From Wenyingzhuangia gilva (GTDB taxonomy: Bacteria; Bacteroidota; Bacteroidia; Flavobacteriales; Flavobacteriaceae), in the NCBI RefSeq assembly GCF_030519655.1, contig NZ_JAUMIT010000001.1, positions 434,001-498,000 on the forward strand: a stretch of 64,000 nt of DNA, in the 5' to 3' direction. Both the position numbers and the translations under genes were made by a program. Of the stretch, positions 11,966 to 57,044 are shown in pieces. The notes under the pieces are model-generated. The model was given only the letters and a program-made list of their open reading frames with translations, had not been told where the DNA came from and made no database searches. Position 1 is the stretch's first letter, and every line of letters begins with the position of its first letter.

Positions 11966-12021
11966 TTTTCGTTGTTCGGTTTCCGATGACCGTTGTTCGC
12001 TCTTCGATCGTCGCTTGTCGG
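11966..12021. repeat. CG-phased 7-bp array between gmd and the four-helix gene
   Basis: Eight consecutive heptads, each with CG at positions 5-6: TTTTCGT, TGTTCGG, TTTCCGA, TGACCGT, TGTTCGC, TCTTCGA, TCGTCGC, TTGTCGG. The array fills nearly the whole gap between the four-helix gene stop (12024) and the gmd start (11955). Confidence 0.85.
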
Positions 12022-12023
12022 TG

Positions 12024-12368
12024 TTATTTTAATGATTTTATTAATTTATATAACATCATTTTTACTCGTGTACACATTTCATATAATTCCTCATACTTTT
12101 CACTTGAGATATATTCTAAATCTCTTGCTAGAAATAGTTGATAATTTGTTTCTTCTAAAGAACCTTTGGCGATGTATAAGAACTGTACAAATTCTTTTTT
12201 ATATTGTCGTCCATGTCCTTCTATTATATTTGTTGGAACACTACTTGAACTTCTCCTTATCTGACTCGTTAAACCATATATTTCAGAAGAAGGAAAGTTT
12301 TTAGAAATTTGATATACCTCCAATGTTAATTGATGTGCTAATTTCCAAACTTCAAGATTTGATTCCAT
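12024..12368 (-). CDS. Four-helix bundle protein (S23/bAvd-like family)
   Basis: 114 residues, all helical. The pattern LEVWKLAHQLTLEVYQISKNFP at the start, then LTSQIRRSSSSVPTNIIEG in the centre, is diagnostic of the four-helix bundle family (TIGR02436, PF05635). Members occur as inserts in 23S rRNA genes and as the Avd partner of diversity-generating retroelements. No reverse transcriptase or rRNA gene is nearby here, so the function is unknown. It interrupts the gmd-fcl pair, and both of its flanks are 7-bp repeat arrays (11966-12021 and 12372-12420), which suggests that it arrived together with them or at a repeat-prone site. Confidence 0.9.
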   Translation of the reverse strand: MESNLEVWKLAHQLTLEVYQISKNFPSSEIYGLTSQIRRSSSSVPTNIIEGHGRQYKKEFVQFLYIAKGSLEETNYQLFLARDLEYISSEKYEELYEMCTRVKMMLYKLIKSLK

Positions 12369-12371
12369 TTT

Positions 12372-12420
12372 TTGTTCGTTGTCCGATGTTCGCTACTCGA
12401 TTTTCGATGAGCGGTGGTCG
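12372..12420. repeat. CG-phased 7-bp array between the four-helix gene and fcl
   Basis: Seven consecutive heptads ending in CG: TTGTTCG, TTGTCCG, ATGTTCG, CTACTCG, ATTTTCG, ATGAGCG, GTGGTCG. It occupies almost the whole 60-bp spacer between the four-helix gene start (12368) and the fcl stop (12429). Confidence 0.85.
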
Positions 12421-12428
12421 TTATCCAA

Positions 12429-13376
12429 TTATAATTTTACTTGTTTAAAGCTTTCTATGTTTTCTAGAAACCAATGATAGGTTTTTTGAATTCCCTCTTC
12501 TAGCCCTACTTGATGTTTCCATCCTAACGCATGCATTTTGGAGATATCCATTAACTTTCGAGGGGTTCCGTCAGGTTTTGAGCTGTCCCAAATGATTTCT
12601 CCAGTATGCCCTACTACTTTTTGAATGGTTTCTGCTAATTCTCTGATGGTTAGATCTTCTCCTGTTCCCACATTATATAAATGCTCTGGCAATACATTTT
12701 CTAAGGCAAATACTACTGATTTTGCCATGTCGTCTACAAACAAGAATTCTCTCATTGGCGTTCCACTCCCCCACAGTTCGACAGGCTCACTGTTCAATTT
12801 TGCTTCATGGAATTTGCGAATCATGGCTGGTAGGACATGAGATGTTTGTAAGTCAAAATTATCGTGGGTTCCATATAAATTTGTAGGCATTAAAGACACA
12901 AAGTCTTTTCCAAATTGTTTTCTAATTGCTTGACAAGCTTTGACTCCTGTTATTTTGGCAATGGCATACCACTCATTTGTGGGTTCTAAAGTATCGGTTA
13001 ATAAATATTCTTCTTTTAAAGGTTGAGGAGCAAATTTTGGATAAATACAAGAGCTTCCTAAAAAAATGAATTTTTGAATGTCTTGTTTTAACGCTGCATC
13101 AATCAGGTTGTTCTGAATTTGCATGTTCTCCATCAAGAATTGATAAGGATAATCATTGTTTGCTAAAATCCCTCCTACTCTGGCTGCAGCATCAATTACC
13201 ACCTCTGGTTTTTCGGTTTCAAAGAATTCTTTGACCGCAATTGCATTTCTTAAATCTAATTCTTTACTAGTTTTTCCAATGACATTTGTATAACCTTCTT
13301 GCTCTAACACTCGACATACTGCACTTCCCACCATTCCTCTATGGCCAGCGACATATATCTTTTTGTTTTTATTCAT
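12429..13376 (-). CDS. fcl: GDP-L-fucose synthase
   Basis: 315 residues. Performs epimerisation at C3/C5 and NADPH reduction of GDP-4-keto-6-deoxymannose to GDP-L-fucose. Marks: GHRGMVGSA (11-19), SSC at 108-110, Tyr137-x3-Lys141 (YAIAK) and MPTNLYGTHDNFD. These match the Ser/Cys/Tyr/Lys catalytic set of E. coli Fcl. It is the first gene of the fcl/four-helix/gmd group and has a 315-bp spacer upstream that probably carries its promoter. Confidence 0.96.
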   Translation of the reverse strand: MNKNKKIYVAGHRGMVGSAVCRVLEQEGYTNVIGKTSKELDLRNAIAVKEFFETEKPEVVIDAAARVGGILANNDYPYQFLMENMQIQNNLIDAALKQDIQKFIFLGSSCIYPKFAPQPLKEEYLLTDTLEPTNEWYAIAKITGVKACQAIRKQFGKDFVSLMPTNLYGTHDNFDLQTSHVLPAMIRKFHEAKLNSEPVELWGSGTPMREFLFVDDMAKSVVFALENVLPEHLYNVGTGEDLTIRELAETIQKVVGHTGEIIWDSSKPDGTPRKLMDISKMHALGWKHQVGLEEGIQKTYHWFLENIESFKQVKL

Positions 13377-13691
13377 AGCCTTCTTTTTATCTATACTTCT
13401 AATTATTTACGATATCCCTCAATTATATATTTGAAATTTGTTGACTAAAAAACTCACTTCTGTCAACTTTTCACATTGATTTACCAAAACAATTGTAACT
13501 TTTTCTTTTGACAAATATAAACAACCGAAAATTGTTTTCACATTAAATTTATGATAAACAAGCAATTAATTTTTGTTTGATTATTTGATTTTGAATATTC
13601 TTAATACTTGATGTGGTTTGTTAAAAACAACTACAATTTCAACCTTAAATACTGTGATATCCATAAACATTCGATATTCTACTAAAGCAAC
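13377..13691. other. 315-bp spacer upstream of fcl
   Basis: No open frame of note and no 7-bp array. It contains a candidate -7 element for leftward transcription of fcl at 13512-13519 (reads TATATTTG on the minus strand), without a clear -33 TTTG. A short inverted repeat GTTGAC/GTCAAC lies at about 13439-13467. The break suggests that the fcl-gmd group is transcribed separately from the part-B genes. Confidence 0.4.
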
Positions 13692-14624
13692 TTATTTCTT
13701 AAAAGATTTTATGGTTTTGACGATTCCTTGTTTCGTATTAATTGGTAACTCTTTTTTTATGGCTTTTTTTATTTTTACATTACTCACCAAATAATTCTCG
13801 GTTAATTTATCTAAACGCTCGCTATTTACAGGTAAGGGAATTACATCTCCTAGTTTTGCCATCAATTTTACGATGCTTTTTGGAATCTTTAAAATTTTTG
13901 TTGGCTTGTTAATGGCTTCTCCAATGATGCTTACTAAATTTGTGGTTGACAAAGACTCATCATCTGCAACATTATATACTCCGCTTGGAATATCCTTGTT
14001 TTCTATGATTTCTTTAATGACAAAACATAAATTCTCAACAGCTAAAAAAGATCGCTGATTTTGATACCCTCCAAATGGATATGGAATTCCTTTAGACACA
14101 AAACTATATAATAAGTTTAAATTTCCTTTATTCCCAGGTCCATGAATCATACAAGGTCTTAGTATGTATAATCTTTTCCCTTTAGGTAAAGGCTGGTTCA
14201 ACAAATACTCCTCAGCTTTTTGTTTGGATTGTCCGTAAACTGTTTGCGGATTTGGATGTGTTTCTTCAGTTAAAACTCCTTCCATTTTATCTGCCACTGC
14301 TTTTACAGAGCTCATGTATATAAAAGTTTCACAAGTACTTTGCAAAAACTGGTTGAATAATTGAATTGTTAACTCTGTGTTTACTTGAAAATATTCTTGG
14401 TCTTGAGATGTTTTTTTTAGGTCATGCGCTTTTCCTGCTAAGTGAATAAAAACATGCATATTATTCCATTCCTGAGAAGTTAAATGACTATAAGAAATCA
14501 TTTTTGTTTCTTTTGCACTCCTAGAAATTCCTTTTATTTTATTTGACCTATTTTTTTCTAAATATGGGCTTAAATTTTGCCCAACAAAACCTGTAACTCC
14601 TGTGATTGTTATGTTTTTCTTCAT
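13692..14624 (-). CDS. Extended SDR, WbpV/Gne-like nucleotide-sugar reductase or epimerase
   Basis: 310 residues. GVTGFVGQ (9-16), HLAGKAH at 61-67, SSVK at 105-108 and catalytic Tyr130-x3-Lys134. The HLAGKAH motif and length fit the WbpV group (UDP-QuiNAc synthesis in Pseudomonas O-antigens) and related C4 epimerases. In such clusters this gene is normally last and next to the initiating sugar-phosphate transferase, but none is visible in this window. The start abuts the GT4 gene upstream (1 bp apart). WbpV versus a 4-epimerase cannot be decided by eye. Confidence 0.75.
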   Translation of the reverse strand: MKKNITITGVTGFVGQNLSPYLEKNRSNKIKGISRSAKETKMISYSHLTSQEWNNMHVFIHLAGKAHDLKKTSQDQEYFQVNTELTIQLFNQFLQSTCETFIYMSSVKAVADKMEGVLTEETHPNPQTVYGQSKQKAEEYLLNQPLPKGKRLYILRPCMIHGPGNKGNLNLLYSFVSKGIPYPFGGYQNQRSFLAVENLCFVIKEIIENKDIPSGVYNVADDESLSTTNLVSIIGEAINKPTKILKIPKSIVKLMAKLGDVIPLPVNSERLDKLTENYLVSNVKIKKAIKKELPINTKQGIVKTIKSFKK

Positions 14625-15788
14625 TTATTCTACAATTGAAGTATAAATGTTAAGTAGGGCCGAATAAACCTTGTCTTCTGAGAATTTTTCTTTGTATAAT
14701 TTTTGACTATTCTTTCCTAAAACATCTATGTCACTTTTTAAAACTTCCACAATGGCTTTTTGAATTGCTTCTACATTTCTAGGCTTTATTAAAAAACCAT
14801 TCATATTCTCTTTATCAATTAAATGGTTGCACCCTGGCATATCAGTTGTAATTATTGGTTTTCCAACAGCCATCGATTCTAATAAAAACCGAGGAGTTCC
14901 CTCTCTATAATATGTTGGTAAAATAGACACATCTCCCATTCCTATAACAACCTCAATATCAGATCGCTTTCCTAAAAAATTAATATAATCAAATTCCTTG
15001 GCTAATTCTTCTAAATCTTTAGGATTAACAGCGGAAGGGTTTTGAATATCACTCCAGCCAACAACCACCAAACTTATAGGAGGGGCATAATTTTCATTTA
15101 CTTTGATTACGGCCTTAACCAACTCTAACACTCCTTTTTCTTTTAATAATCTAGAGACAAAAACAATAATTTTACTCTCTTTAGAGATTTTAAGTTGCTC
15201 TCTAAGTTCATTGATTTTTTTTATATTATTTAAATTTGATTGATCATTAAATCTATCTTCATTTACTGCACTTCCTTCAATACAATAGACTCTTTCTTTA
15301 AAACCTAATTCTTGAATATCTTCTTTATTCTGAAAAACAGTATAGGGTTTAAAGCAATAGTTGTTAAGTTTATATAAAAGCTTAATTACTAATTGTAGGA
15401 TCTTACTTTTTGTATTATTACTAGAAAAAACAACCCCTAAACCCGTTATATGATTCACAATTTTAGATGAAGTGTAAAGCCCAGCTATAAAAGTTCCAAT
15501 CAAGTTTGGTTGTAACCTATAAAAGTGAACAATATCAAAATTTTCTTTTTTTAGGATCCCCCTTAGTTCACTTGCGTACTTTATTTTTGATTTTATTCCT
15601 TTATCTCTAATGCTATCTTCAACTTCAATCACATTGATCTTTTCCCTCTTAATCAACATCTTATGTCCATCTTTAGGAATTATTGCATAAACCTCAAAAC
15701 CTTTATTTTTTAAAAACACAGCATATCTCAGCCTAGCTCCCACAAAATCAGCTCCAAAATTCTCAACCAATGCTATCTTCATACTCAT
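14625..15788 (-). CDS. Glycosyltransferase family 4
   Basis: 387 residues. GT-B fold: N-terminal domain with GADFVGARLRYAVFLKNKGFEVYAI, inter-domain IVFVSRLLKEKGVLELVKAV (donor-site start) and the EX7E-type segment YYREGTPRFLLESMAVGKPIITTD near 312-335, where Glu binds the nucleotide sugar. This resembles the PglA/WbnE/CapM group of GT4 enzymes. ATG at 15788 or the second Met two codons later are both possible starts. Next to the WbpV-like gene, so likely acts early in building the part-B repeat unit. Confidence 0.9.
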   Translation of the reverse strand: MSMKIALVENFGADFVGARLRYAVFLKNKGFEVYAIIPKDGHKMLIKREKINVIEVEDSIRDKGIKSKIKYASELRGILKKENFDIVHFYRLQPNLIGTFIAGLYTSSKIVNHITGLGVVFSSNNTKSKILQLVIKLLYKLNNYCFKPYTVFQNKEDIQELGFKERVYCIEGSAVNEDRFNDQSNLNNIKKINELREQLKISKESKIIVFVSRLLKEKGVLELVKAVIKVNENYAPPISLVVVGWSDIQNPSAVNPKDLEELAKEFDYINFLGKRSDIEVVIGMGDVSILPTYYREGTPRFLLESMAVGKPIITTDMPGCNHLIDKENMNGFLIKPRNVEAIQKAIVEVLKSDIDVLGKNSQKLYKEKFSEDKVYSALLNIYTSIVE

Positions 15789-15899
15789 TTATTTTACTTC
15801 ACTTTTAGTGTTGACACTTGTTGTAAAATGACATTTCTTTTTCTCCCCTCATCAACATTCTTGTTTACAACCAACATAAATAAATATTAGAAGTAAACA

Positions 15900-17078
15900 C
15901 TAAATTTCTTTTAAGAATGCTTCAAATATCGAAGTATACTTTCTAAAATCGAACAGTTCCGTTTTGATTGTATTTTTTTTCATCTGATTTAACTTTACTC
16001 TATCTGTAAGCAATGCTTTTCGCAAACTTTCTTTTAAGGAATTTGAATTACTAGTATCTAGCCAGAATCCATTTTGTCCTTCTATTAAAAAGTCCGATAA
16101 ATTAGTGCTTTTATTTGTTAAAACTGGTACTCCTAATGTAATAGCTTCAGCAAACTTTGTTGGAAACCCTGCACGATTTGCTAACGTATCTTCTCTTAAA
16201 AATATTGAAAAATCACATTTTTTCAGCATCTCAACTGCCTCTAAATGAGGTTTTCTTCCATAAAAAACAACTACTTCATCCTCTAAATTATATTGTAAAT
16301 CGGGATAAAATTCCAAAAACATTTCTTTCTCTATACCAACTATATTTAACCTTACTTTTATTTCACTAGACAAGTCTATAAACATCCCTACAAGATTATC
16401 TAGCCGATCTTTTTGTCCTTTGGTTTCAATTGAAAAAGGAGAGCCCACATAAATGACCTCAACCCTGTCTTGTTCTATTCTGACACTTTGTTCTTGGTAT
16501 AACCATTTTAGGGCTTTACTATCTACCAAAGGAGGAATGTTTATCGTTTTTACCCCTTTTTTTTCGTAAAAATTTTGTAAATAATTACTAATGACAATGG
16601 CTCCATCTAATTTAGTATGCATGATGTGCATTCTTGTGTAAATATCAAATGTCTTTATTCGTTTTTTTAAAAAACTTTCTCCTTTAGCAACCTCGTACCA
16701 TTCCGTACAATCTGAAATGATTTTTATTTGATTTTTTTTAGCCCAAATATTTAACCTGTAAAGAGAATAAGATGAAAAGTTGTAAGCTATAATTCCATTT
16801 ACATTTTTGTAAGACTTCACTATTTTTATATAGTCTTTATAGGATACCCAATGCTTAAACCACTCTTTAACTCCTGTTGGATATTTCTTAACATAGACGT
16901 CTGAATTAAAATGTTTCTCTTTTACTATTGCCTCATCAATTGATTTAGACACCCCTATAAAAACTACTTTAAAACCTAGCGAATTAAGCACCTTAGCATT
17001 AGCGACTACTCGTTGTGCTGCAGCATTTTTATCCGGCATCTCAAATCCTCCAATATATATAATTGTTCCTTTACTCAT
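15900..17078 (-). CDS. Glycosyltransferase family 4, WbuB-like position
   Basis: 392 residues with two Rossmann-like halves. N-terminal GGFEMPDKNAAAQRVVANAK and C-terminal TKFAEAITLGVPVLTNKSTN (about 330-349), the latter holding the nucleotide-sugar Glu, indicate GT4. It follows the UDP-L-FucNAc cassette with 2 bp spacing. In E. coli O26 the homologous position (fnlA-fnlB-fnlC-wbuB) is taken by the FucNAc transferase, so transfer of L-FucNAc is an inference from gene order only. Confidence 0.82.
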   Translation of the reverse strand: MSKGTIIYIGGFEMPDKNAAAQRVVANAKVLNSLGFKVVFIGVSKSIDEAIVKEKHFNSDVYVKKYPTGVKEWFKHWVSYKDYIKIVKSYKNVNGIIAYNFSSYSLYRLNIWAKKNQIKIISDCTEWYEVAKGESFLKKRIKTFDIYTRMHIMHTKLDGAIVISNYLQNFYEKKGVKTINIPPLVDSKALKWLYQEQSVRIEQDRVEVIYVGSPFSIETKGQKDRLDNLVGMFIDLSSEIKVRLNIVGIEKEMFLEFYPDLQYNLEDEVVVFYGRKPHLEAVEMLKKCDFSIFLREDTLANRAGFPTKFAEAITLGVPVLTNKSTNLSDFLIEGQNGFWLDTSNSNSLKESLRKALLTDRVKLNQMKKNTIKTELFDFRKYTSIFEAFLKEI

Positions 17079-17080
17079 AC

Positions 17081-18211
17081 CTATTTATTCCAAACTACTC
17101 TGTTAATATAATCTGTGTAGGACAAAATTATTCTTACCACTTTATCAGATACGTTCGGCATGGAGTAATCTGCAACAGGCCTTAACAATCTTTCTTTACC
17201 TATGTTTTGCTTTTCTAAGATGACTAATGCTTGCATTATTCTTTCAGGAGAAAGTCCAACCATCATTACAGAAGCTTCTTCCATGGCTTCTGGTCTTTCA
17301 TGAGCTTCTCGTATATTTAATGCAGAAAAATTCATAATTGAGGATTCTTCAGAAATTGTTCCACTATCAGACAATACCACTTTTGCATTTCTCTGTAAGT
17401 TATTGTAATCGTGAAAACCTAAGGGTTTCATTAAACTCACCAAAGAATTGAACTCAACCTTCATTTCATTAATTTTATTTCTAGTTCTAGGATGTGTAGA
17501 AACAATTACAGGTAACTTATATTTTTCTGCAATTGCATTTAAAGATTCTACTAATTTTAAGAAATTATCTGAATTTATATTTTCTTCTCTGTGGGCTGAT
17601 ACTAAAAAATATAATCCTTTTTTTAACTCTAGTCTAGACAATACTTCAGATTCTTCTATTTGTTTATTATACGCGGTGACTACTTCAAAAATAGGGGAAC
17701 CCGTTTTAATGACTCTATCTGCAGGTAGTCCCTCCCTTAATAAATACTCTCTTGCAATATCACTATAGGTTAGATTTATATCACTAATATGATCTACAAT
17801 TTTTCTATTTGTTTCTTCTGGAACACGTTGATCAAAACAACGATTACCAGCTTCCATATGAAAAATTGGGATTTTTCTTTTTTTGGCTGCAATTGCACAC
17901 AAACATGAATTTGTATCTCCTAACACTAAAAAAGCATCTGGTTTTACCTCCTCTAGTACAGGATCTATGTTAATTAAAATTTGTCCTGCCGTAGTCGTTG
18001 CATTTCCACCCGCCGCATTCAAAAAATAATCAGGTTTTCTTAAGCCTAGATCGTTAAAAAACACTTCATTTAACTCATAATCATAATTCTGTCCTGTATG
18101 TACCAAAACGTGATCAATACTTTCAGTATCATCTAATTTTAATAACACTCTAGAAAGTCTAATAATTTCTGGCCTTGTACCTACTACTGTAAGAACTTTT
18201 AACTTTTTCAT
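17081..18211 (-). CDS. capG: UDP-N-acetylglucosamine 2-epimerase family, CapG/FnlC-like
   Basis: 376 residues. Opening VVGTRPEIIRLSRVLLKLDD and the central HMEAGNRCFDQRVPEETNRK (about 119-138) are signatures of the WecB/CapG epimerase family; LSDSGTISEES carries further active-site residues. Together with the CapE- and CapF-like genes just upstream it should perform the last C2 epimerisation to UDP-N-acetyl-L-fucosamine. Gene order CapE, cupin, CapF, CapG is the argument for CapG over a housekeeping WecB. Spacing to CapF is 11 bp. Confidence 0.9.
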   Translation of the reverse strand: MKKLKVLTVVGTRPEIIRLSRVLLKLDDTESIDHVLVHTGQNYDYELNEVFFNDLGLRKPDYFLNAAGGNATTTAGQILINIDPVLEEVKPDAFLVLGDTNSCLCAIAAKKRKIPIFHMEAGNRCFDQRVPEETNRKIVDHISDINLTYSDIAREYLLREGLPADRVIKTGSPIFEVVTAYNKQIEESEVLSRLELKKGLYFLVSAHREENINSDNFLKLVESLNAIAEKYKLPVIVSTHPRTRNKINEMKVEFNSLVSLMKPLGFHDYNNLQRNAKVVLSDSGTISEESSIMNFSALNIREAHERPEAMEEASVMMVGLSPERIMQALVILEKQNIGKERLLRPVADYSMPNVSDKVVRIILSYTDYINRVVWNK

Positions 18212-18222
18212 TTTTCATTTTT

Positions 18223-19341
18223 TTAAACTTCTACAAAATACGTATCTGCATCTTCTGGATTGTATGGTTCATTTATCCAAAAGTTTGTATATAAGGTTTC
18301 TTCTCCTATATTTTTTATATTATGTGTATACCATATTGGCATATCAACATAGGAAGGCTGCTCACCATCTAAATAAAAATCAAGAACTTCATCGGTCCCT
18401 ATACGTCTTAATTGAATCAATGCTTTTCCTTTGATGACGGCAAAACGTTCTATTTTTCTTGTGTGAAAATGATTTCCTCTAGTAATTCCTGGTACAGTTG
18501 TAGAAAATGATACCTGACCTCCTATTCCTAAACGAATCACTTCTACAAAGGATCCTCTTGGATCTGTATGTTTAGTAAACTTTACAGGAAAATAAGTTTT
18601 GATAGGCATCGCACATCTGAAAGTGTTGAATAAATTCAACTCAAACGAATTATTTAATAAGGGTATTTCTCCATTATTCTGGTATTGATTCTTAAATTTC
18701 TTAAGTAATACTAATAATTCCGAAACCTTTGCTTCCTTAGAATGAGGAACTACATAAATATTTTCTTCAATCTTATTTTTTATAAAATTGATTATTTTAT
18801 CTATCAACTCACCCACATAAATTAATTTTAATTCTCCATCAACTTGTATCGTTGGAGTTTCTCCATTGGCTAATTGATGCGAAAATGTGGCCACTACTGA
18901 ATTATAGAAAGGTTTTCCAAACGGGCCAAACACATTAGGGATTATTAAACCTGTAAATACTGCTCCAACTTTGTTTGCCCAATTTATTAGAAGTTCTCTA
19001 CCCTCTTTCTTAGATTTTCCGTATAAATTATTTTTCTCTTCTTGAGAAGAAGATGATAATAAAATATGTGGCTTACTCCCTGTTCTTTCTAAGGAAGAAA
19101 CTAGTTTTTTTACCAAGCTGATATTTGTTTCGTAAATAACTGCTGGATTTTCATGTCGATTCATTGCTGCTAAATGGACTATTACATCGCATTTAGAAAC
19201 AAATTCATCTAATAAAATCTCATTAGAAAAAAACTTCCTTTCATAATCAATTAATACAAAATCGTGTGGACTTAAACTAATTGTATTATATAAATGGGTT
19301 CCTACAAAACCTTGTTGTCCCGTTATCCCTATTTTTAACAT
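18223..19341 (-). CDS. capF: CapF-like bifunctional SDR-cupin
   Basis: 372 residues. An N-terminal SDR domain (GITGQQGFVGTHL; Tyr-x3-Lys in YGKSK) is followed from about residue 250 by a cupin: TDPRGSFVEVIRLGIGGQ, GNHFHTRKIERFAV with metal-ligand His, and YTHNIKNIGEE. This fusion is specific to CapF/WbjC/FnlB, which epimerises at C3 in the cupin and reduces C4 in the SDR, giving UDP-N-acetyl-L-talosamine in the FucNAc pathway. It is between the cupin gene and CapG in one operon. Confidence 0.92.
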   Translation of the reverse strand: MLKIGITGQQGFVGTHLYNTISLSPHDFVLIDYERKFFSNEILLDEFVSKCDVIVHLAAMNRHENPAVIYETNISLVKKLVSSLERTGSKPHILLSSSSQEEKNNLYGKSKKEGRELLINWANKVGAVFTGLIIPNVFGPFGKPFYNSVVATFSHQLANGETPTIQVDGELKLIYVGELIDKIINFIKNKIEENIYVVPHSKEAKVSELLVLLKKFKNQYQNNGEIPLLNNSFELNLFNTFRCAMPIKTYFPVKFTKHTDPRGSFVEVIRLGIGGQVSFSTTVPGITRGNHFHTRKIERFAVIKGKALIQLRRIGTDEVLDFYLDGEQPSYVDMPIWYTHNIKNIGEETLYTNFWINEPYNPEDADTYFVEV

Positions 19342-19347
19342 TTTTAT

Positions 19348-19773
19348 TTAATTTATATCCTCAAAATATTTAATATCGTACCTATACTCATCTTTTATAC
19401 TACCTAACAAATAGTCTGACATTACTAATAATTTAGCATTCTCTTTGGTTGACTGAATACTACTTATATAGCCTGCAGGCACATGCAATACACTCATATT
19501 ACTTGCAGAAATTTGAAATTCCATCACTTCTAAATCCTTAGAGGGACTTTCCCAGTTATCAACTGCCAATAATTTAATCAAAAATTCTCCACATATAACA
19601 GAAAACCAGCGTTGTTCTATTTTATGCCCTTGCCACCCTCTTATTAACTCTGGACTTTTATTTTTTATTATATACATACGTTTGATTTCTGTTGCATCAA
19701 AATCGTTGTTATACAACAACAAACCTCTTTCGTCAGAAAAACTTCCTCCTTTAATTAAAATAGGTTTTGGCAT
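19348..19773 (-). CDS. Cupin sugar isomerase/epimerase-like protein (WxcM/RmlC-like)
   Basis: 141 residues forming one small cupin barrel: GGSFSDERGLLLYNNDFDATEIKRMY, GWQGHKIEQRWFSVICGEF and VLHVPAGYISSIQS. The layout resembles FdtA/QdtA/WxcM and WbuC-type cupins of nucleotide-sugar clusters. It sits between CapE- and CapF-like genes (10 and 6 bp spacers), so it is an extra member of the FucNAc cassette. The usual catalytic His-Asp pair of RmlC is not evident, and the reaction is unknown. Confidence 0.75.
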   Translation of the reverse strand: MPKPILIKGGSFSDERGLLLYNNDFDATEIKRMYIIKNKSPELIRGWQGHKIEQRWFSVICGEFLIKLLAVDNWESPSKDLEVMEFQISASNMSVLHVPAGYISSIQSTKENAKLLVMSDYLLGSIKDEYRYDIKYFEDIN

Positions 19774-19783
19774 TTTTTAAAAT

Positions 19784-20794: not shown

Positions 20795-20813
20795 ATTCTT
20801 CGTTTTAACAGTT

Positions 20814-27402: not shown

Positions 27403-27430
27403 TTTTTCGATGACCGATGGTCGATTTTCG
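27403..27430. repeat. CG-phased 7-bp array upstream of ugd
   Basis: Four heptads ending in CG: TTTTTCG, ATGACCG, ATGGTCG, ATTTTCG, ten bases upstream of the ugd start. Three more (TCATTCG, ATTTTCG, ATGGTCG) lie at 27518-27538, beyond the hairpin repeat at 27462-27515. Confidence 0.75.
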
Positions 27431-29965: not shown

Positions 29966-29993
29966 TACTTCGATGACCGATGTTCGGGGTTCG
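29966..29993. repeat. CG-phased 7-bp array
   Basis: Four heptads with terminal CG: TACTTCG, ATGACCG, ATGTTCG, GGGTTCG. Two of these units are shared with the array upstream of ugd or inside gmd. Confidence 0.75.
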
Positions 29994-32652: not shown

Positions 32653-32985
32653 TGATATTGTTTTTTAGGTTTCCTGCTTTGATATTAGGTTTTGGTTAAA
32701 TTGTTTATTGAGTGGTGAAGGGTTTTAGAAGTTTTGGTCGATAATACAAAATCTCATATTTAAAGCATAATATCTCAATTCAACTTGATTTGTTCATTTT
32801 TTCTATCGATGAAAAAACGAACCAAAAAAATCTAGACTGCATAAATACTTCCTATATTTTTGTTCCTCTCTTAAATTTTAGGGATGTATTTATGATGCCA
32901 AATAAACATCTACTATTTTTAACAACGAAGTTAACCTTTAATATCAATCAACTCTATTTAGGGAAGTTCATAATGAAAGGGAATA

Positions 32986-33027
32986 GTGAGTAGAGGAGTG
33001 AGTGGTGAGTAGTGAAAAATAAAGAAC
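32986..33027. repeat. GTGAG-type 7-bp array
   Basis: GTGAGTA at 32986, a 5-bp break, then GTGAGTG, GTGAGTA and GTGAAAA in register from 32998 to 33018. The last 23 bp (33005-33027) recur at 30164-30186. Confidence 0.7.
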
Positions 33028-33069
33028 CGCCTGCTAAATAAACTAACCATCACGATGCTTTTTTAATTC

Positions 33070-33215
33070 TCATACTTTGTCTTGAAACAAAGTACGCAAA
33101 AGTCAAGACTCTAAAAGAACATCGCTAAAATTCTAATCTCATAACCGAAAACAAAAGAACTCTCTGCGTTCAAACAGCTTTTGTTTTTACGGCCATTTCA
33201 ATTGAATTTTTTACA
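33070..33215. repeat. Long interspersed repeat, copy 2
   Basis: Starts with ACTTTGTCTTGA...TCAAGACT and continues through ACAAAAGAACTCTC and CAAACAGCTTTTG to TTTTTACGG. Co-linear with 25610-25760 but clearly diverged. Confidence 0.65.
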
Positions 33216-33650
33216 CAACACCCTTTTATGCCAATTAAATTCTCCATTAATACTTCCATAAGCTCAGCACAAGTGCAAAACGAACGAAAAAATCTAGGCT
33301 GCATAAATTCATCCTATGTTTTAAATTTTCTCTAACTTCAAACTTTTACATTTTCTTTTAACTTCTTATGTTCATTTTTGCTTGATCAAAAACGAACCAA
33401 AAAATCAAGATAAATCTTATGAAATTACTACGTAACAGTCATTCCATCATTCCATGCTCTTTAGCTATGCTACGCAATTCCATGACTCCATGACTTATTT
33501 CTTAGATTTATCAATAAATTCCATTCTTCTATTAATTGTTATCAATACTAGCTTCTTATGTTCATTTTGTCTTGATACTTCCACAAGCTCAGAACAGGCC
33601 GCTCGATGACCGATGGCGAGGATTAGTGAAAAATGAGAAGTGAGAAGTTC

Positions 33651-33734
33651 TTCTATGTTCGATGTTTGCTACTCAAGGGGCGGGGTTGATGTTTAAAGTT
33701 CAAAGTTTAAGATTCAACGATGGAGAATTTCATG
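33651..33734. repeat. T-phased 7-bp array in copy 1 of the duplication
   Basis: Twelve heptads in one register: TTCTATG, TTCGATG, TTTGCTA, CTCAAGG, GGCGGGG, TTGATGT, TTAAAGT, TCAAAGT, TTAAGAT, TCAACGA, TGGAGAA, TTTCATG. Most begin with T and many with TT or TC. Confidence 0.75.
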
Positions 33735-33834
33735 AGTACATGATTTATTCCTTGGATTTATCGGTTTAAGAACTGTTTCTTATTGGTATAGAGAGTGCAT
33801 CTCGACTGCGCTCGATGACCGATGGCGAGGATTA

Positions 33835-33897
33835 GTGAAGAGTGAGAAGTGAGTGGTGAGAAGTGAGAAGTTCTCAGTTATAAGTTGTCTGTTTTTG
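33835..33897. repeat. GT-phased 7-bp array in copy 2 of the duplication
   Basis: Nine heptads, all beginning with GT: GTGAAGA, GTGAGAA, GTGAGTG, GTGAGAA, GTGAGAA, GTTCTCA, GTTATAA, GTTGTCT, GTTTTTG. Confidence 0.8.
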
Positions 33898-33907
33898 AGA
33901 GAAGTTC

Positions 33908-34005
33908 TTCGATGTTCGATGTTCGCTACTCAAGGGGCGGGGTTGATGTTTAAAGTTCAAAGTTTAAGATTCAACTTTTAAAATTCAACGATGAAGAATT
34001 TCATG
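33908..34005. repeat. T-phased 7-bp array in copy 2 of the duplication
   Basis: Fourteen heptads in one register: TTCGATG, TTCGATG, TTCGCTA, CTCAAGG, GGCGGGG, TTGATGT, TTAAAGT, TCAAAGT, TTAAGAT, TCAACTT, TTAAAAT, TCAACGA, TGAAGAA, TTTCATG. Compared with 33651-33734 it has exactly two more units (TCAACTT, TTAAAAT). Confidence 0.8.
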
Positions 34006-34278
34006 ACTACATGATTTTTTCCTTAGATTTATCGGTTTAAGAACTGTTTCTTATTGGTATAGACAGTGCATCTCGACTGCGCTCGATGACCATACACAAA
34101 CATATTTATTTAATAACGAATTGAGAAATTTCAACTATGAATTGATTAAGGACATACGCTCTCTTAAAAAAGACTAAACACACAAACATTCAACACTTTA
34201 TAATTCAACCTCATAGTATTCTATTCATTTTGCATCTCAACCTACTTCTACTAAGCTCAGCAACCACCCATCGATGAC

Positions 34279-35521: not shown

Positions 35522-35556
35522 AGTACCGAGTATTGAGTACTGAGTATTAAGTTTTT
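35522..35556. repeat. AGTA-type 7-bp array between folC and the TonB gene
   Basis: Five heptads beginning AGT: AGTACCG, AGTATTG, AGTACTG, AGTATTA, AGTTTTT. Reverse-complement relatives (TACTCAA, TACTCAG) form the array between ilvD and ilvB at 57003-57037. Confidence 0.8.
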
Positions 35557-41064: not shown

Positions 41065-41106
41065 GTGAAGTGAGAAGTTAGTAGTTAGGAGTTAGGAGTT
41101 AGGAAA
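41065..41106. repeat. TAGGAGT-type 7-bp array upstream of anmK
   Basis: Six heptads in register: GTGAAGT, GAGAAGT, TAGTAGT, TAGGAGT, TAGGAGT, TAGGAAA. Confidence 0.8.
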
Positions 41107-51341: not shown

Positions 51342-51401
51342 TACGATATCGTTTTCGTATAAACTAGTTGACTTGCCCCCCATTCATTACATAAAAATGA
51401 C

Positions 51402-51409
51402 TATTTTTG
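51402..51409 (+). promoter_or_regulatory. Candidate -7 element upstream of fbaA
   Basis: TATTTTTG (TAnnTTTG), 30 bp before the ATG at 51440. No -33 at the usual distance. Confidence 0.35.
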
Positions 51410-51439
51410 TTGTGATTAATTCAATAAACTAATTATAAA

Positions 51440-52507
51440 ATGAGTTACAATATCAAACCAGGAGTTGCTACAGGAGATGCAGTTCAAGAAATTTTCAAAC
51501 TAGCAAAAGAAAAACAATTTGCATTACCGGCTGTTAACGTAACAGGTAGTAACACAATTAACACAGTTTTAGAAACTGCTAAAGAATTAAACTCACCAGT
51601 AATTATTCAATTTTCTAACGGTGGAGCTATTTTTAATGCAGGAAAAGGATTGTCTAACGACGGACAAGCTGCTGCTATTGCTGGAGCTATTGCTGGAGCA
51701 AAACATGTACACGAATTATCTTTAGCTTATGGTGTGCCTGTAATTTTACATACAGACCACGCTGCAAAAAACTTATTACCTTGGATTGATGGTTTGTTAG
51801 ATGCTTCTGAAAAACACTTTGCAGAAACAGGAGCTCCATTATTCTCTTCTCATATGATTGATTTATCTGAAGAGCCTATTGAAGAAAACATCGCTATTTG
51901 TAAAGAATACTTAAAGCGTATGGACAAAATGGGTATGACTTTAGAAATTGAATTAGGAATTACAGGAGGTGAAGAAGATGGTGTTGACAACTCTAACGTT
52001 GACGAATCTAAATTGTACACCCAACCTGAAGAGGTAAACTACTGCTACGAAGAACTATCTCAAGTATCTTCTAGATTTACTGTAGCTGCTGCTTTTGGAA
52101 ATGTGCACGGTGTTTATAAACCAGGAAACGTAAAACTAACTCCAAAAATCTTAGATAACTCACAAAAATTTATCGAAGAGAAACATGGATTAGAACATAA
52201 CCCAATTGATTTCGTATTCCACGGAGGATCTGGTTCTTCTGTAGAAGAAATTAGAGAAGCTATTGGATATGGTGCTATTAAAATGAACATTGATACTGAC
52301 TTGCAGTATGCTTTTATGGAGGGAATTAGAGACTATATGGCTGCTAATGCAGACTTTTTACAATCTCAAATCGGAAACCCTACTGGAGCTGACGCCCCTA
52401 ACAAGAAATACTACGACCCAAGAGTTTGGTTACGTAAAGGAGAAGAGACATTAAAAACTCGTTTGAAACAAGCTTTTGCTGACTTAAACAACGTAAACAC
52501 TTTATAA
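51440..52507 (+). CDS. fbaA: Fructose-bisphosphate aldolase, class II
   Basis: 355 residues. Cleaves fructose-1,6-bisphosphate in glycolysis with Zn2+. HTDHAAKNLLPW (Zn His and catalytic Asp), ELGITGGEEDGVDN, FGNVHGVYKPGNVKL and FVFHGGSGSSVEEI with the second and third Zn His are all present. Length as for the E. coli-like class IIA enzymes. Own terminator at 52542-52578. Confidence 0.97.
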   Translation: MSYNIKPGVATGDAVQEIFKLAKEKQFALPAVNVTGSNTINTVLETAKELNSPVIIQFSNGGAIFNAGKGLSNDGQAAAIAGAIAGAKHVHELSLAYGVPVILHTDHAAKNLLPWIDGLLDASEKHFAETGAPLFSSHMIDLSEEPIEENIAICKEYLKRMDKMGMTLEIELGITGGEEDGVDNSNVDESKLYTQPEEVNYCYEELSQVSSRFTVAAAFGNVHGVYKPGNVKLTPKILDNSQKFIEEKHGLEHNPIDFVFHGGSGSSVEEIREAIGYGAIKMNIDTDLQYAFMEGIRDYMAANADFLQSQIGNPTGADAPNKKYYDPRVWLRKGEETLKTRLKQAFADLNNVNTL

Positions 52508-52541
52508 TCAACAAGATTATATTTGTTTTATCATACAGAAT

Positions 52542-52578
52542 AGAGAAACTGATTTTATGCAGTTTCTCTATTTTTTTT
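52542..52578 (+). terminator. Terminator of fbaA
   Basis: Perfect 10-bp stem AGAGAAACTG / CAGTTTCTCT with an 8-nt loop, then A and eight T. Confidence 0.9.
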
Positions 52579-52610
52579 AGTAAATTGCCCCTCTATTTAA
52601 ATGAATAATT

Positions 52611-53483
52611 ATGACAGCTTGGTTTAAAAGAAGTGATAAAGGAATTCAAACCCCTACAGAAGCTAAGAAAGATGTGCCTAAAGGATTGTGGTACAAAACT
52701 CCTAGCGGAAAAATCATCGATACAGATGAATTAAAAGGAAACCTATATGTAAGTCCTGAAGACGGATATCATGTAAGAATCGGTAGTAATGAATATTTTG
52801 AAATATTATTCGATAATAACAAATATACTGAGTTAGACAAAAACCTAACATCTGTAGATTCTTTAAATTTTGAAGACACCAAACCTTATCCAGAAAGAAT
52901 TAAAGAAGCACAAAGTAAAACCAATTTAAAAGATGCAGTAAGAACGGCTGTTGGGAACTCTTATGGAAAACCAATAGTTATTGCTGCTATGGACTTTGCT
53001 TTTATTGGAGGTTCTATGGGATCTGTGGTTGGAGAAAAAATAGCAAGAGCAATTGACTATGCTAGAGAAAACAAAACTCCATTTTTAATGATTTCTAAAT
53101 CTGGTGGTGCTCGTATGCAAGAAGCACCTTTGTCTTTAATGCAGTTGGTAAAAACCTCTGCTAAATTAACACAATTGGCAGAAGCTAAAATACCTTACAT
53201 TTCATTATGCACAGACCCTACAACTGGAGGAACTACTGCTTCATACGCCATGTTAGGAGACATCAATATTGCAGAGCCTAACGCCTTGGTTGCTTTTGCT
53301 GGTCCACGTGTGGTAAGAGATACCACAGGACAAGATTTACCAGAAGGTTTCCAACGCTCTGAATTTTTATTAGAACATGGTTTCTTAGATGCTATTTACG
53401 AACGTAAAAACCTAAAAAAACAAATCAATTTATATATTGACTTGATTCAAAACAACAAGATTAGAACAAAAGCTGCGATATAA
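52611..53483 (+). CDS. accD: Acetyl-CoA carboxylase carboxyltransferase beta subunit, lacking zinc-ribbon Cys
   Basis: 290 residues. Carboxyltransferase core with [39 protein letters not shown] and [30 protein letters not shown]. The N-terminal zinc ribbon of E. coli AccD (Cys-x2-Cys ... Cys-x2-Cys) is present in outline ([32 protein letters not shown]) but all four Cys are replaced by Thr, Gly/Ser, Ser and Asp-type residues. I believe this is common to flavobacteria. Function in malonyl-CoA synthesis should be kept. Own terminator follows. Confidence 0.95.
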
Positions 53484-53500
53484 ATCTTTTACAATATCTA

Positions 53501-53537
53501 AAAAAGCCCTTTTTAAAATTAAAAAGGGCTTTTTTTA
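53501..53537 (+). terminator. Terminator of accD
   Basis: Stem AAAAGCCCTTTTTA / TAAAAAGGGCTTTT with a small loop, then a T tract. Confidence 0.85.
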
Positions 53538-53563
53538 TACACATAAGAAAAAAATTATGCCAT

Positions 53564-53602
53564 TAAAAAAACCTCCAAGACTAAATTAGTTTTGGAGGTT
53601 TT
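53564..53602 (-). terminator. Terminator of gltA
   Basis: Stem AAAACCTCCAA / TTGGAGGTTTT around a loop of about 13; on the minus strand it is followed by seven T. Lies between convergent accD and gltA. Confidence 0.8.
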
Positions 53603-53629
53603 ATGTATATCAATATATCTTCTCAGATA

Positions 53630-54916
53630 TTATCTTTTTTCAATATCTACATACGACCTTAATGTTTCCCCAACATATAATTGACGAGGACGACCAATAG
53701 GCTCTTTATTCTCTCTCATTTCTTTCCATTGAGCAATCCATCCTGGTAAACGTCCCATTGCGAATAACACTGTAAACATTTCTACAGGAATTCCTAATGC
53801 ACGATATATAATTCCAGAGTAAAAATCTACGTTAGGATATAAATTTCTAGACTTAAAGTATTCATCATTTAACGCCGCCTCAGACAAACCTCTCGCAATG
53901 TCTAATACAGGATCTTGAATATCTAAATCTTTTAAAATATCTTCTGCAGCTACCTTAATAATTTTTGCACGTGGATCGAAGTTCTTATATACTCTGTGCC
54001 CGAATCCCATCAAACGGAAAGGATCATTCTTATCTTTAGCCTTATCTAAATATTTTTCAAAACCACCACCATCGGCTTTAATTTCTTCTAACATTTCAAT
54101 TACAGCTTGGTTTGCACCACCATGTAACGGTCCCCATAAAGCAGAAATACCAGCAGAAATTGAAGCAAATAATCCAGCATGAGAAGACCCTACAATTCTT
54201 ACTGTAGATGTTGAACAGTTTTGCTCATGATCTGCATGTAAGATTAATAACTTATCAAGAGCATCAATAACAATTTTATTTATTTGATATTCTTTATTAG
54301 CCTTTTTGAACATCATTTTTGCAAAATTCTCTTCATAGCTCAAATCAACATCTCCATAATCTAAAGGCTCACCTTTCATCTTACGCATGCACCAAGATAC
54401 CAACACTGGGAATTTCCCCATAAGAATTACAATGGCATTGTACATATCCTGTTCAGAAGTAATGTCAACTGCTTTTGGATTAAATGCAGTCAAAGCACTA
54501 GTTAAAGATGACAACACTCCCATTGGGTGTGCATTCTTTGGAAAAGCATCTAAAATTTTGTGAATATCTTCATCCACCATTGAATTATTTTTGATGTCTT
54601 GATCAAATTTATCCAATTGTTCTGTGGTTGGTAATTCTCCAAAAATAAGCAAATATGAAACTTCTAAAAAAGAAGCTTTTTCTGCTAATTCTTCAATTGC
54701 ATATCCTCTATATCTTAAAATTCCTTTCTCACCATCTAAAAAGGTAATAGCACTTTTACATGAACCTGTATTTTTAAACCCTGGATCAATCGTCGTAACA
54801 CCTTCAGTTGCTGCCCTAAGCTGTTTGATATCAATTGCTACTTCGTTCTCTGAACCACGCTCTAATGGAAGCTCGTACTTTTTTCCTTCTATTTCTAGTA
54901 TTGCTGTGTTTGACAT
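53630..54916 (-). CDS. gltA: Citrate synthase
   Basis: 428 residues, type II hexameric length. Condenses acetyl-CoA and oxaloacetate. Marks: GILRYRGYAIEELAEKA, HADHEQNCSTSTVRIVGSSHAG (catalytic His), GPLHGGANQAVIEML and FGHRVYKNFDPRAKI (second His), with catalytic Asp in NVDFYSG. Single gene with a clear promoter at 54958-54987 and its own terminator. Confidence 0.97.
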   Translation of the reverse strand: MSNTAILEIEGKKYELPLERGSENEVAIDIKQLRAATEGVTTIDPGFKNTGSCKSAITFLDGEKGILRYRGYAIEELAEKASFLEVSYLLIFGELPTTEQLDKFDQDIKNNSMVDEDIHKILDAFPKNAHPMGVLSSLTSALTAFNPKAVDITSEQDMYNAIVILMGKFPVLVSWCMRKMKGEPLDYGDVDLSYEENFAKMMFKKANKEYQINKIVIDALDKLLILHADHEQNCSTSTVRIVGSSHAGLFASISAGISALWGPLHGGANQAVIEMLEEIKADGGGFEKYLDKAKDKNDPFRLMGFGHRVYKNFDPRAKIIKVAAEDILKDLDIQDPVLDIARGLSEAALNDEYFKSRNLYPNVDFYSGIIYRALGIPVEMFTVLFAMGRLPGWIAQWKEMRENKEPIGRPRQLYVGETLRSYVDIEKR

Positions 54917-54957
54917 ATAAAATTTAATATTTCCTTAATATTTTTACTTGAGATTCA

Positions 54958-54987
54958 CAAATCTACAAATAAATCCCTTTTTTCAAA
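54958..54987 (-). promoter_or_regulatory. Promoter of gltA
   Basis: On the minus strand TTTG (54987-54984), 18 bp, TAGATTTG (54965-54958): a full match to the Bacteroidota -33/-7 consensus, about 42 bp before the start codon. Confidence 0.7.
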
Positions 54988-55271
54988 AGATAAAATTACT
55001 TAATTACACTACGTAAACATACGTAGTTTAACAAAACTCCTCTTTTCTTTACAATATATAACAACTATTTCATTTTATAATAAATTAAATAAAGAGATTA
55101 TAAACGTCTTAACATCATTTCTTAAAACATTTAATGTTCTGATTTATAATTATTTATAAAAAATAACAATCACTGAACAACGTAAGTTTTTTAGGATTTT
55201 TTTTTTATCCTTAATTACTATTCTAATTTTGTGTGTTCATTGAGAAAATTTTGAAATAAAGACCTTTAAGA
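54988..55271. other. Divergent spacer between gltA and ilvD
   Basis: AT-rich with no open frame. It carries a candidate -7 for ilvD, TAATTTTG at 55224-55231, 41 bp before the ilvD ATG; the expected -33 position holds only T. I looked for a leader peptide rich in Ile, Leu or Val and saw none. Confidence 0.4.
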
Positions 55272-56951
55272 ATGGCATTAAATAAACACAGTAAAAGACT
55301 TACTCAAGATCCATCACAACCTGCTTCACAAGCAATGTTGTATGCAGTAGGATTAACAGATGAAGACATGAACAAACCTCAAATTGGTATCGCAAGTACT
55401 GGTTATGATGGAAATCCATGTAACATGCATTTGAACAACTTAGCTCAAGAAATTAAGAAATATACAAACCTTAACGAACAAGTTGGATTGACTTTTAACA
55501 CCATTGGTGTGAGTGATGGTATTTCCATGGGAACTTCTGGAATGAATTACTCATTGGCTTCAAGAGATATTATTGCAGATTCTATGGAAACTGTAGTAAA
55601 CGCTCAAAGCTATGATGGTTTGGTGGGTGTTGTTGGTTGTGATAAAAATATGCCAGGAGCTATTATTGCTATGTTGCGTTTAAATCGTCCATCGTTAATG
55701 GTGTACGGAGGAAGTATCGCTTCAGGAAAATACAAAGGACGTAAATTGAACATTGTTTCTGCGTTTGAAGCTTTAGGACAAAAAGTTGCAGGAGAAATTG
55801 ACGAAACTGAATATAGAGAAATTATTAAATCTGCTATTCCAGGAGCTGGAGCTTGTGGAGGAATGTACACTGCAAACACCATGGCATCTTCTATAGAATG
55901 TATGGGAATGGCTTTGCCGTATAACTCCTCAATTCCTGCAGAAAACCCTAATAAATTATCAGAAGCTGAGCGAACTGCTAAAGCCATGAAAAATTTATTA
56001 GAACTAGACTTAAAACCCAAAGATATTGTCACCAAAAAATCAATAGAAAACGCCGTTGCTTTGGTCAATGCTTTAGGTGGATCAACCAATGCTGTTTTAC
56101 ACTATTTGGCCATTGCCTATGCAGCTGATATTGAATTTACTCTAGAAGATTTTCAGAGAGTAAGTGATAACACTCCGTTGATTGCAGATTTAAAACCTTC
56201 TGGTAAATATTTAATGGAAGATGTGCATAGTATTGGTGGTACACCAGCCATTATGAAATATTTATTAGAAAAAGGATATTTACACGGTGACTGTATGACT
56301 GTTACAGGAAAGACTTTGGCAGAAAACTTAGCTGATGTAGAAGCTATGGAATTTGAAGATCAAGATGTTGTTCATCCAACTGATAAAGCCTTAAAATCAT
56401 CAGGTAACTTACAAATCTTATATGGTAACCTTGCTGAGAAAGGAGCAGTTGCAAAGATATCTGGAAACGAAGGATTAAAATTTGAAGGAAGAGCGGTTGT
56501 TTACGATGGTGAACAAGCTGCCAATACCGGAATTTCTAATGGAGAAGTAAACAGAGGAGACGTCGTCGTTATTCGTTATGTTGGACCTAAAGGTGGCCCT
56601 GGAATGCCAGAGATGCTAAAACCAACATCATTAATTATGGGAGCTGGTTTAGGTAAATCAGTTGCTTTGATTACTGACGGACGTTTTTCTGGTGGAACAC
56701 ACGGGTTTGTGGTAGGTCACATAACGCCCGAAGCACAAGACGGTGGATTGATTGGATTGGTAGAAACGGGAGATACCATTACCATTAGTGCAGAGGACAA
56801 CTCAATTACTTTACAAGTTTCAGAGGAAGAAATCGCCACTCGTAAAGCTAAGTGGATCCAACCACCTTTAAAACACAATAAAGGTATTCTGTTTAAATAC
56901 GCCAGATCAGTAGCTTCGGCTTCTGAAGGATGTGTAACAGATAAATATTAA
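55272..56951 (+). CDS. ilvD: Dihydroxy-acid dehydratase
   Basis: 559 residues. Dehydrates dihydroxy acids in valine, leucine and isoleucine synthesis; contains an Fe-S cluster. Cluster Cys are visible in [18 protein letters not shown] and [27 protein letters not shown] and PGGPGMPEM (here KGGPGMPEM) are also family marks. First gene of the ilv group. The 94-bp spacer to ilvB is a heptad array. Confidence 0.96.
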
Positions 56952-56953
56952 TC

Positions 56954-57044
56954 AAAGTACCAAGTAAAAAGTATCAAGTACAAAGTTTAAATCAACAACC
57001 TATACTCAATACTCAGTACTCAGTACTCAATACTACATACGAAG
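56954..57044. repeat. 7-bp array filling the ilvD-ilvB spacer
   Basis: Thirteen heptads in one register: AAAGTAC, CAAGTAA, AAAGTAT, CAAGTAC, AAAGTTT, AAATCAA, CAACCTA, TACTCAA, TACTCAG, TACTCAG, TACTCAA, TACTACA, TACGAAG. The array begins 3 bp after the ilvD stop and ends 1 bp before the ilvB ATG, so the ilvB translation start region itself consists of repeats. Confidence 0.85.

Follow-up and report, generated by a model that had tools for sequence, protein, structure and literature searches.

Why should the intergenic spacers of one chromosome carry tandem arrays that have a repeat period in common and not a repeat sequence? The question is raised by a stretch of 64,000 nucleotides from Wenyingzhuangia gilva (NCBI RefSeq assembly GCF_030519655.1, contig NZ_JAUMIT010000001.1, positions 434,001 to 498,000, forward strand), referred to here as the window, in which a reading of the sequence alone had listed eleven arrays of 7-nt units and had ascribed them to a process copying such units rather than to the spread of an element. 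All eleven arrays were found at the positions given. However, the factor they share appears to be a family of small elements: the arrays are probably the ends, or the remains lacking an open reading frame (ORF), of units of approximately 450 bp that encode a protein of the 23S_rRNA_IVP family (PF05635, hereafter IVP), which would recognise the inverted arms of its own element.

Heptad arrays of the window and the IVP element

Arrays were counted in the window and in 400 kb of its contig at a threshold of at least 19 matches in 28 at a given lag. With coding DNA included, the window holds 14 arrays at lag 7 and 0, 1, 0 and 2 at lags 5, 6, 8 and 9 respectively, with 7, 6 and 5 at lags 12, 14 and 21; shuffling the window in 60-base blocks gave 1.1 lag-7 arrays. 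The 400 kb contain 44 lag-7 arrays, 36 of them intergenic, against 0 to 3 intergenic arrays at each of lags 5, 6, 8 to 13 and 15, and 20 at the harmonic lag 14. The dinucleotide CG repeated four times over (CG-N5 x4 at period 7) was matched 16 times in the same 400 kb at period 7, never at periods 4 to 6 or 8 to 13, and 3 times at period 14. Many of the arrays are separated from a start or stop codon by 0 to 30 nt, and the neighbouring genes are mostly co-directional. An excess at lag 7, whose absence would have spoken against the sequence-only reading, was therefore present, and the view of one period common to many sequence classes, mostly in spacers, was borne out far beyond one locus. The longest among the intergenic arrays listed in the 400 kb is a run of 12 error-free ATGGTTG units (C1:689263-689397 of the window genome, G000), located between ORFs of 445 and 149 amino acids.

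Two of the eleven arrays, taken previously as separate CG-phased arrays, are both present and form the opposite ends of a single element that encloses a gene, with the following parts (z, autocorrelation score):

11967-12422, minus strand: whole element, two CG-class heptad arms and the IVP gene; recurs alone elsewhere in the relative G203
11966-12021, minus strand: CG-class arm 3' of the IVP stop codon; z of 5.2 at lag 7, at most 1.5 at other lags from 4 to 11
12024-12368, minus strand: IVP (four-helix-bundle) gene, 114 amino acids; PF05635, TIGR02436
12372-12420, minus strand: CG-class arm 5' of the IVP start codon; z of 5.2 at lag 7, at most 1.0 at other lags from 4 to 11

The encoded protein is a member of PF05635 (E 7e-43, 145.6 bits, cut-off 33.8) and also matches TIGR02436, the NCBIfam 'four helix bundle protein' (141.3 bits, cut-off 24). 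Its predicted structure (predicted local distance difference test 96.7) would have the four-helix-bundle fold, matching 2GSC chain D with template-modelling (TM) scores of 0.94/0.93; the S23-family structures 2GSC and 2RLD were the top matches of the model, followed at E 0.009 and worse by Avd proteins of diversity-generating retroelements (DGRs). The ORF is under purifying selection, with ratios of non-synonymous to synonymous substitution of 0.04-0.16 across the 11 pairs with finite synonymous divergence of 13 tried, the window IVP included, and the protein therefore works. The genome of the window contains 9 PF05635 matches, several with arrays on both sides.

The element lies between a GDP-mannose dehydratase gene and a 315-aa ORF and, judged by these neighbouring protein genes and with no Rfam search of the window made, is not inside a 23S rRNA gene. 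This 114-aa ORF does not encode any known nuclease, recombinase or reverse transcriptase (RT), and no RT was found among 10 window proteins scanned with Pfam, no search aimed at RT having been made. A CG-class heptad run is also present within the GDP-mannose dehydratase-like ORF itself (11002-11041 in ORF 10777-11955, minus strand, approximately codons 305-318), resembling an arm that is translated in frame, and the stretch of G203 matching this region likewise has CG matches (C9:150653-150724). Elsewhere in the window genome, a second, divergent four-helix-bundle gene (C1:684811-685101, locus L035) is flanked by AATTA-class and inverted TAATT-class heptads.

Arms, period and unit class at IVP loci across bacteria

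Linkage between heptad arrays and IVP genes was measured as the best autocorrelation lag (4-13) in the 130 nt on each side of the ORF. The main set comprised 115 loci, i.e. 29 from Bacteroidota, 6 from the window genome and 80 from other searches, the last being the best 80 of at least 585 and spanning more than 15 phyla by record titles; 2 of the 115 were excluded for want of a clear IVP ORF, and then 2 and 1 for too-short flanks. PF05635 matches occur in 157 of 198 Bacteroidota genomes. Lag 7 was best upstream in 83/111 IVP loci and downstream in 80/112, compared to 74/429 and 86/429 for control genes of the same loci (Fisher test, 4e-30 and 5e-24, loci not corrected for kinship). Lag 8 was best in 16/111 upstream and 17/112 downstream flanks, which is no enrichment by raw count (16/111 versus 47/429, p 0.32); at z of at least 4.4 it was found in 14/111 and 15/112 IVP flanks versus 14/429 and 11/429 controls, so that enrichment of lag 8 holds above this threshold and by pairing only. 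The two flanks agree in period, with 69 (7,7) and 12 (8,8) pairs and only 3 mixed 7/8 pairs among 110 loci.

Further sets gave similar pictures. For cyanobacteria (27 of 29 loci used, 2 dropped, a few short or doubtful ORF calls kept), lag 7 was best in 15 upstream and 16 downstream flanks and lag 8 in 6 and 7, with 13 (7,7), 6 (8,8) and no mixed 7/8 pairs. All 29 of 29 gammaproteobacterial loci were used, of which 27 upstream and 26 downstream flanks had lag 7 (24 pairs). For 23 loci of congeners and one family member, some of them orthologous to one another, the corresponding numbers were 16, 12 and 12, and in a small leftover set from other phyla they were 9/13 upstream and 6/15 downstream, 22 of 60 loci from these two sets having been dropped (16 sequence duplicates and 6 without a clear ORF). 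At a threshold of at least 20/28 there were no lag-7 arrays in 580 kb of 14 IVP-free genomes and 14 in 592 kb of 15 IVP-rich genomes, the two groups being of unmatched GC; at 19/28 or more, one lag-7 array was present in the 180 kb of IVP-free sequence counted.

The arms are two-sided and mostly inverted, the downstream array resembling the upstream array in inverted form (median local scores of 25 inverted, 16 direct and 15 against other loci). The inverted score exceeded the direct in 88/110 main-set loci and was lower in 17, i.e. the ends are complementary, with inverted-to-direct ratios of 20:5 in cyanobacteria and 22:6 in Gammaproteobacteria. They also have a polarity, the G-rich arm standing first (5') in 58 of 59 skewed cases of the main set, 17/18 in cyanobacteria and 18/19 in Gammaproteobacteria. 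Arms of both periods have a median of 5-6 units and a mode of 4-5, the 130-nt window and a score floor shaping the tails, and the median distance from the end of a period-7 arm to the start codon is 9.5 nt.

Across loci the units share a core, nAGTnnT at period 7 and CnnAGTnA at period 8, with consensus values of 2.22 versus 1.62+-0.03 and 3.39 versus 2.17+-0.11 in column-permuted controls. Held-out Gammaproteobacteria (2.59 versus 2.04+-0.07) and period-7 cyanobacteria (2.49 versus 1.91+-0.10) had GTSAGnn-like units with the T-n-A core in common; the consensus of the cyanobacterial period-8 arms (n=7) was not above the maximum of its controls. In the lineage of the window CG replaces AG in the core. 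Of the published heptads scored against the unit matrix, TAACTGA fell at percentile 99.3, GTGATTA at 98.7 and GACAGAT at 75.

Period follows protein type in many bacterial groups. On a tree of 110 IVPs with 80 sevens, 19 eights and 11 rows uncalled or other, built from few columns and with many open forks, period changes 5 times versus 17.5 after shuffling, with 0 of 500 shuffles as low, and one period-8 clade of 11 rows from several families in two phyla has a support of 99. A period of 7 is therefore not universal among these arrays. The aligned columns of window IVP residues F79, K103 and M104 differ most between period-7 and period-8 proteins; confounded by descent, they are candidates for setting ring geometry as a lead only.

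The sequence class of the unit also tracks the protein. Where two IVPs are less than 60% identical in amino-acid sequence, their arms are no more alike than background; above this value arm similarity rises, partly through shared descent at the same site. Matches to CG-N5 x4 (overlapping matches included; reversed-pattern control in brackets) numbered 21 (21) in G000, 53 (4) in G199, 142 (46) in G200 and 131 (4) in G203, all carrying an IVP at least 72% identical to that of the window, and 13 (31), 2 (19), 2 (1), 3 (74) and 5 (16) in G198, G201, G202, G204 and G205, which lack one; the contrast rests on G199, G200 and G203, because the G000 count is not above its control. Among the CG arrays listed for G203 and G200, all but one lie within approximately 32 kb of this window-type IVP gene, the exception being an error-free CGTGAGT array that lies on a different G203 contig. 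ORF-less arrays matched IVP arms of the genus better than size-matched AT-rich others in 13 of 18 cases, a modest difference (medians 37 and 28.5), IVP-flanking arrays and three mosaic blocks having been left out and 2 of the 18 flanking a second four-helix-bundle gene.

Presence, absence and arm-only copies

The element is present or absent at one and the same site, and copies consisting of arms only exist. Between its anchors the window site measures 485 bp in the window genome versus 68 bp in G201 and 44 bp in G202, two congeners without arms or ORF here; in G199 the position is taken up by 225 bp of CG heptads, again lacking an ORF, and in G203 (1226 bp) and G198 (562 bp) by different sequence that contains heptads, CG heptads being kept in G198 without an IVP gene of at least 72% identity. 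The nearest IVPs of G203 and G199 lie approximately 3 and 12 kb from the window site, and the match to the G203 copy ends at the arms (query 979-1434 of window:10800-13400, minus strand). A second site, L030, carries IVP sequence together with arms in seven genus members and in G204, with a broken frame in G199 and no ORF in G205, and the unit class of both arms, read by eye, changes together between species.

The other arrays of the window are single-armed, ORF-less or mosaic:

27403-27430: short CG-class array 5' of a UDPG/MGDP dehydrogenase gene, its CG class that of the local IVP; lag-7 z 3.5
29966-29993: short CG-class array 5' of a GFO/IDH/MocA gene; lag-7 z 3.0
33651-34005: mosaic repeat with T-phased heptads (33651-33734 and 33908-34005); lag-7 z 4.7 and 5.2
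33835-33897: GTGAGAA-class array within the mosaic non-coding repeat; lag-7 z 6.3, unit matrix score 3.63
35522-35556: single-arm array 5' of a Mur-ligase-like gene; lag-7 z 5.5, unit matrix score 5.08
41065-41106: single-arm array 5' of an AnmK-like gene; lag-7 z 7.2, unit matrix score 4.38
56952-57045: ORF-less unit in the ilvD-ilvB spacer, arm 56954-56988 and inverted arm 57003-57037

The arrays at 56954-56988 and 57003-57037 had been taken for two; both are present, and they are read here as the inverted arms of one ORF-less unit. Lag 7 was the strongest of lags 5-11 in this spacer in 8/8 genomes (G000, G198-G204), the unit class being replaced in G200 and G204, and the spacer is 40 bp in G205. 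Its self-inverted score reached p<=0.025 in 6/9 genomes, including 5/6 congeners; the exceptions were G200 (0.205), G205 and the window genome G000 itself, with only 0.09. The T-phased and GT-phased arrays were correctly placed by the sequence-only reading, and they are not independent because they lie within one longer dispersed repeat. Most of this repeat recurs, in a 91% copy, at C1:412211-412614; the T-phased pair fit the unit matrix poorly (-0.19 and 0.27) and are the weakest members of the set. The surrounding 32960-34090 is a non-coding mosaic with several heptad classes, the GC-rich motif GGGGCGGGG and a repeated ending, with near copies at C1:412211, 414712, 425325 and 426121.

Unit number, which the sequence-only reading had expected to vary between close strains, is nearly stable in the pairs compared, a result that goes largely against that expectation: a single gap of 7 nt was seen among the 16 flanks from 8 pairs of close species (species, not strains), and slippage is therefore unlikely to be the main present force. 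Some unit copying must have built the arrays at some time.

Proposed mechanism, alternatives and known systems

Each arm would be made up of 4-6 units, or more, with a length of 7 or 8 nt each; the IVP gene would stand between the arms, and the second arm would repeat the units of the first in inverted form. A pentameric IVP would most likely bind the array with one unit per subunit, the protein's geometry setting the unit length (7 nt for most clades and 8 nt for a few) and its surface the unit sequence, around a core T-n-A-G-T and with CG in the window's lineage. Such recognition is suggested because a pentameric relative exists (XCC0516 of Xanthomonas, a homopentamer according to PMC4990558), the fold is Avd-like, an arm has roughly five steps of equal size, and both the period and the unit class go with the protein. 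The whole unit would be gained, lost and moved as a block among short spacers, mostly between co-directional genes, with arm-only copies spreading or persisting beside it as repetitive extragenic palindromic doublets forming hairpins (REPINs) or miniature inverted-repeat transposable elements (MITEs) do next to the genes from which they derive. Movement or copying of the element is suggested by its matching inverted ends, by its absence as one block and by the copies that consist of arms only. Since the 114-aa ORF is none of the known enzymes named above, cutting and joining would need to come from elsewhere in the cell, i.e. from host enzymes.

Several observations weigh against this proposal. 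The moved copies in G203 and G199 are within approximately 12 kb, so gene rearrangement could explain them; insertion versus deletion is not polarised on the species tree, and no target-site duplication is visible, the empty spacers being too different. Inverted versus direct arms were just 5:8 in the other-phyla check (n=13) and 14:7 in congeners, and some congeneric IVP loci are without clear arms. The IVP-rich stretches contain 9 lag-6 arrays against their 14 at lag 7, in a comparison of unmatched GC, and G191 and G103 have many IVPs yet no lag-7 arrays in 80 kb each. The CG count of the window genome equals its reversed control, and none of three G-rich published heptads fits the unit matrix (GGGAATC, GGGGATT and GGGGACT at percentiles 49, 39 and 17).

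An unlikely, though not negligible, alternative is that the arrays are operators: IVP would be a TRAP-like RNA- or DNA-binding regulator, its arms controlling its own operon and the arm-only copies forming a regulon, with no active movement. A regulator would equally be under purifying selection, its binding sites would track the protein in unit class and might well stop, as period-7 arms do, shortly before the start codon, and co-directional neighbours (56/71 versus 329/526) and the place of Avd relatives within a DGR ribonucleoprotein (8UB7) also fit; this account is less able to accommodate two-sided, mostly inverted arms, empty sites with copies elsewhere, and the unrelated enzymes encoded by the scanned genes beside arm-only arrays. 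It is more doubtful still that the arms persist as an RNA stem, the mRNA counterpart of a 23S rRNA intervening sequence (IVS), excised by RNase III and hence tolerated, since the inversion of the arms that suggests this is accompanied by mismatches without G-U bias (67 G-U versus 91 A-C, a test giving no support to selection on a stem), by arm-versus-arm scores under 28 at 47/110 loci and by a choice of period 7 or 8 that a stem does not explain. That polymerase slippage of the ordinary kind favours 7-nt units, independently of any gene, the view reported for prokaryotic repeats in PMC4679880, is very improbable and, like G-quadruplexes, was rejected as a full account: perfect runs such as the ATGGTTG array and the strain differences in unit number of Coxiella (PMC4990558) speak for it, and it is refuted in this role by the IVP linkage and opposed by a period 8 that goes with its protein clade, by the common unit consensus, polarity and stable unit number, and by the lack of lag-7 arrays at 20/28 or more in 580 kb of IVP-free genomes.

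Beyond mobile or once-mobile elements recognised by their own protein, we tentatively suggest, as less likely than not, a wider picture of bacterium-wide minimal mobile elements. In these, a ring-shaped S23/IVP protein would step along its own end arrays at 7 or 8 nt for each subunit, host enzymes would help to copy and move the arrays, perhaps through RNA since Avd of the DGRs is a relative, and the arms would stay matched; such elements would be the source of much unexplained heptanucleotide repeat DNA, with rRNA IVSs as one insertion niche. The S23/IVP proteins, annotated without function, would gain a candidate ligand in the heptad arms, over-represented heptanucleotide repeats so far ascribed to slippage or G-quadruplexes a candidate owner in IVP, and the 23S rRNA IVSs a candidate origin, and the clade-linked period of 7 or 8 would allow the way in which a ring protein reads nucleic acid to be tested sharply. 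No description of a general link between heptads and IVP was found in the open-access PMC literature as far as covered, subscription literature being outside the search.

Among the closest known systems is the 23S rRNA IVS with an S23p ORF, as in Coxiella burnetii (PMC4990558), which shares the protein family, complementary ends and heptamers 5' of the ORF (two or three units by strain). Such IVSs are inserted in rRNA genes, and the window element differs in lying between protein-coding genes, in having arrays as both of its arms, and in having arm-only copies and relatives of period 8. The TAACTGA heptamers of Beggiatoaceae, cyanobacteria and Bacteroidetes (PMC4679880) resemble the arms in standing just 5' of start codons and in their fit to the unit matrix, and differ in being described as one sequence with no linked gene; neither S23 nor a four-helix bundle occurs in the main text of that paper. 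The Xanthomonas GGGAATC and Nostoc GGGGA(C/T)T repeats described in PMC4692102 are similarly 7-nt units with a preference for 4, between aligned ORFs, with 70 and 75 convergent pairs in the two Xanthomonas genomes; they are there explained by G-quadruplexes, their units misfit our matrix, and S23 does not occur in the paper. The S23p of 2GSC is likewise a Xanthomonas protein, from Xanthomonas campestris.

The accessory protein Avd of DGRs is similar in predicted fold (TM 0.79-0.87 to chains of 4DWL and 8UB7), and the window IVP falls below the Avd cut-offs (NF033474, 30.3 versus 80; PF22296, 26.2 versus 40). PF05635 is noted as Avd-like in a DGR context in PMC10053308, and IVP is named once, in a figure legend, in PMC10910872. 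The bAvd locus of G652 (gammaproteobacterial sample, 1.5-Mb genome; loci L356, L357, L358) served as a negative control, being without arms (lag-7 z 2.5 and 1.6, three loci read), unlike the window IVP. Its gene is bAvd by PF22296 (60.5 bits, over cut-off), the preceding ORF ends in a Fib_succ_major domain (one copy scanned), and from sequence it appears to be a retroelement-type Avd. G652 has ten near-identical full-length bAvd genes and a partial eleventh, i.e. many copies of a retroelement-like unit; that its ten PF05635-like matches are rRNA IVSs was rejected, Rfam giving no rRNA in the two loci examined, as was an RT-like stretch after bAvd, a 60-aa piece without Pfam match.

The arrays also differ from simple sequence repeats in that their unit number hardly changes between close species. 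REPINs with their RAYT genes, and MITEs, are short palindromes copied into intergenic DNA, and the gene-bearing source from which they stem is less frequent. The elements described here resemble them in having terminal inverted repeats and non-coding copies, as in the ilvD-ilvB spacers, and differ in that no transposase is present inside and the ends are tandem arrays with a protein-linked period. TRAP is a ring protein on evenly spaced RNA triplets, one repeat per subunit; the likeness would lie only in the proposed working of one repeat per subunit, and no homology is claimed. If rRNA IVSs are counted as the same kind, these elements would represent a large widening of a known kind.

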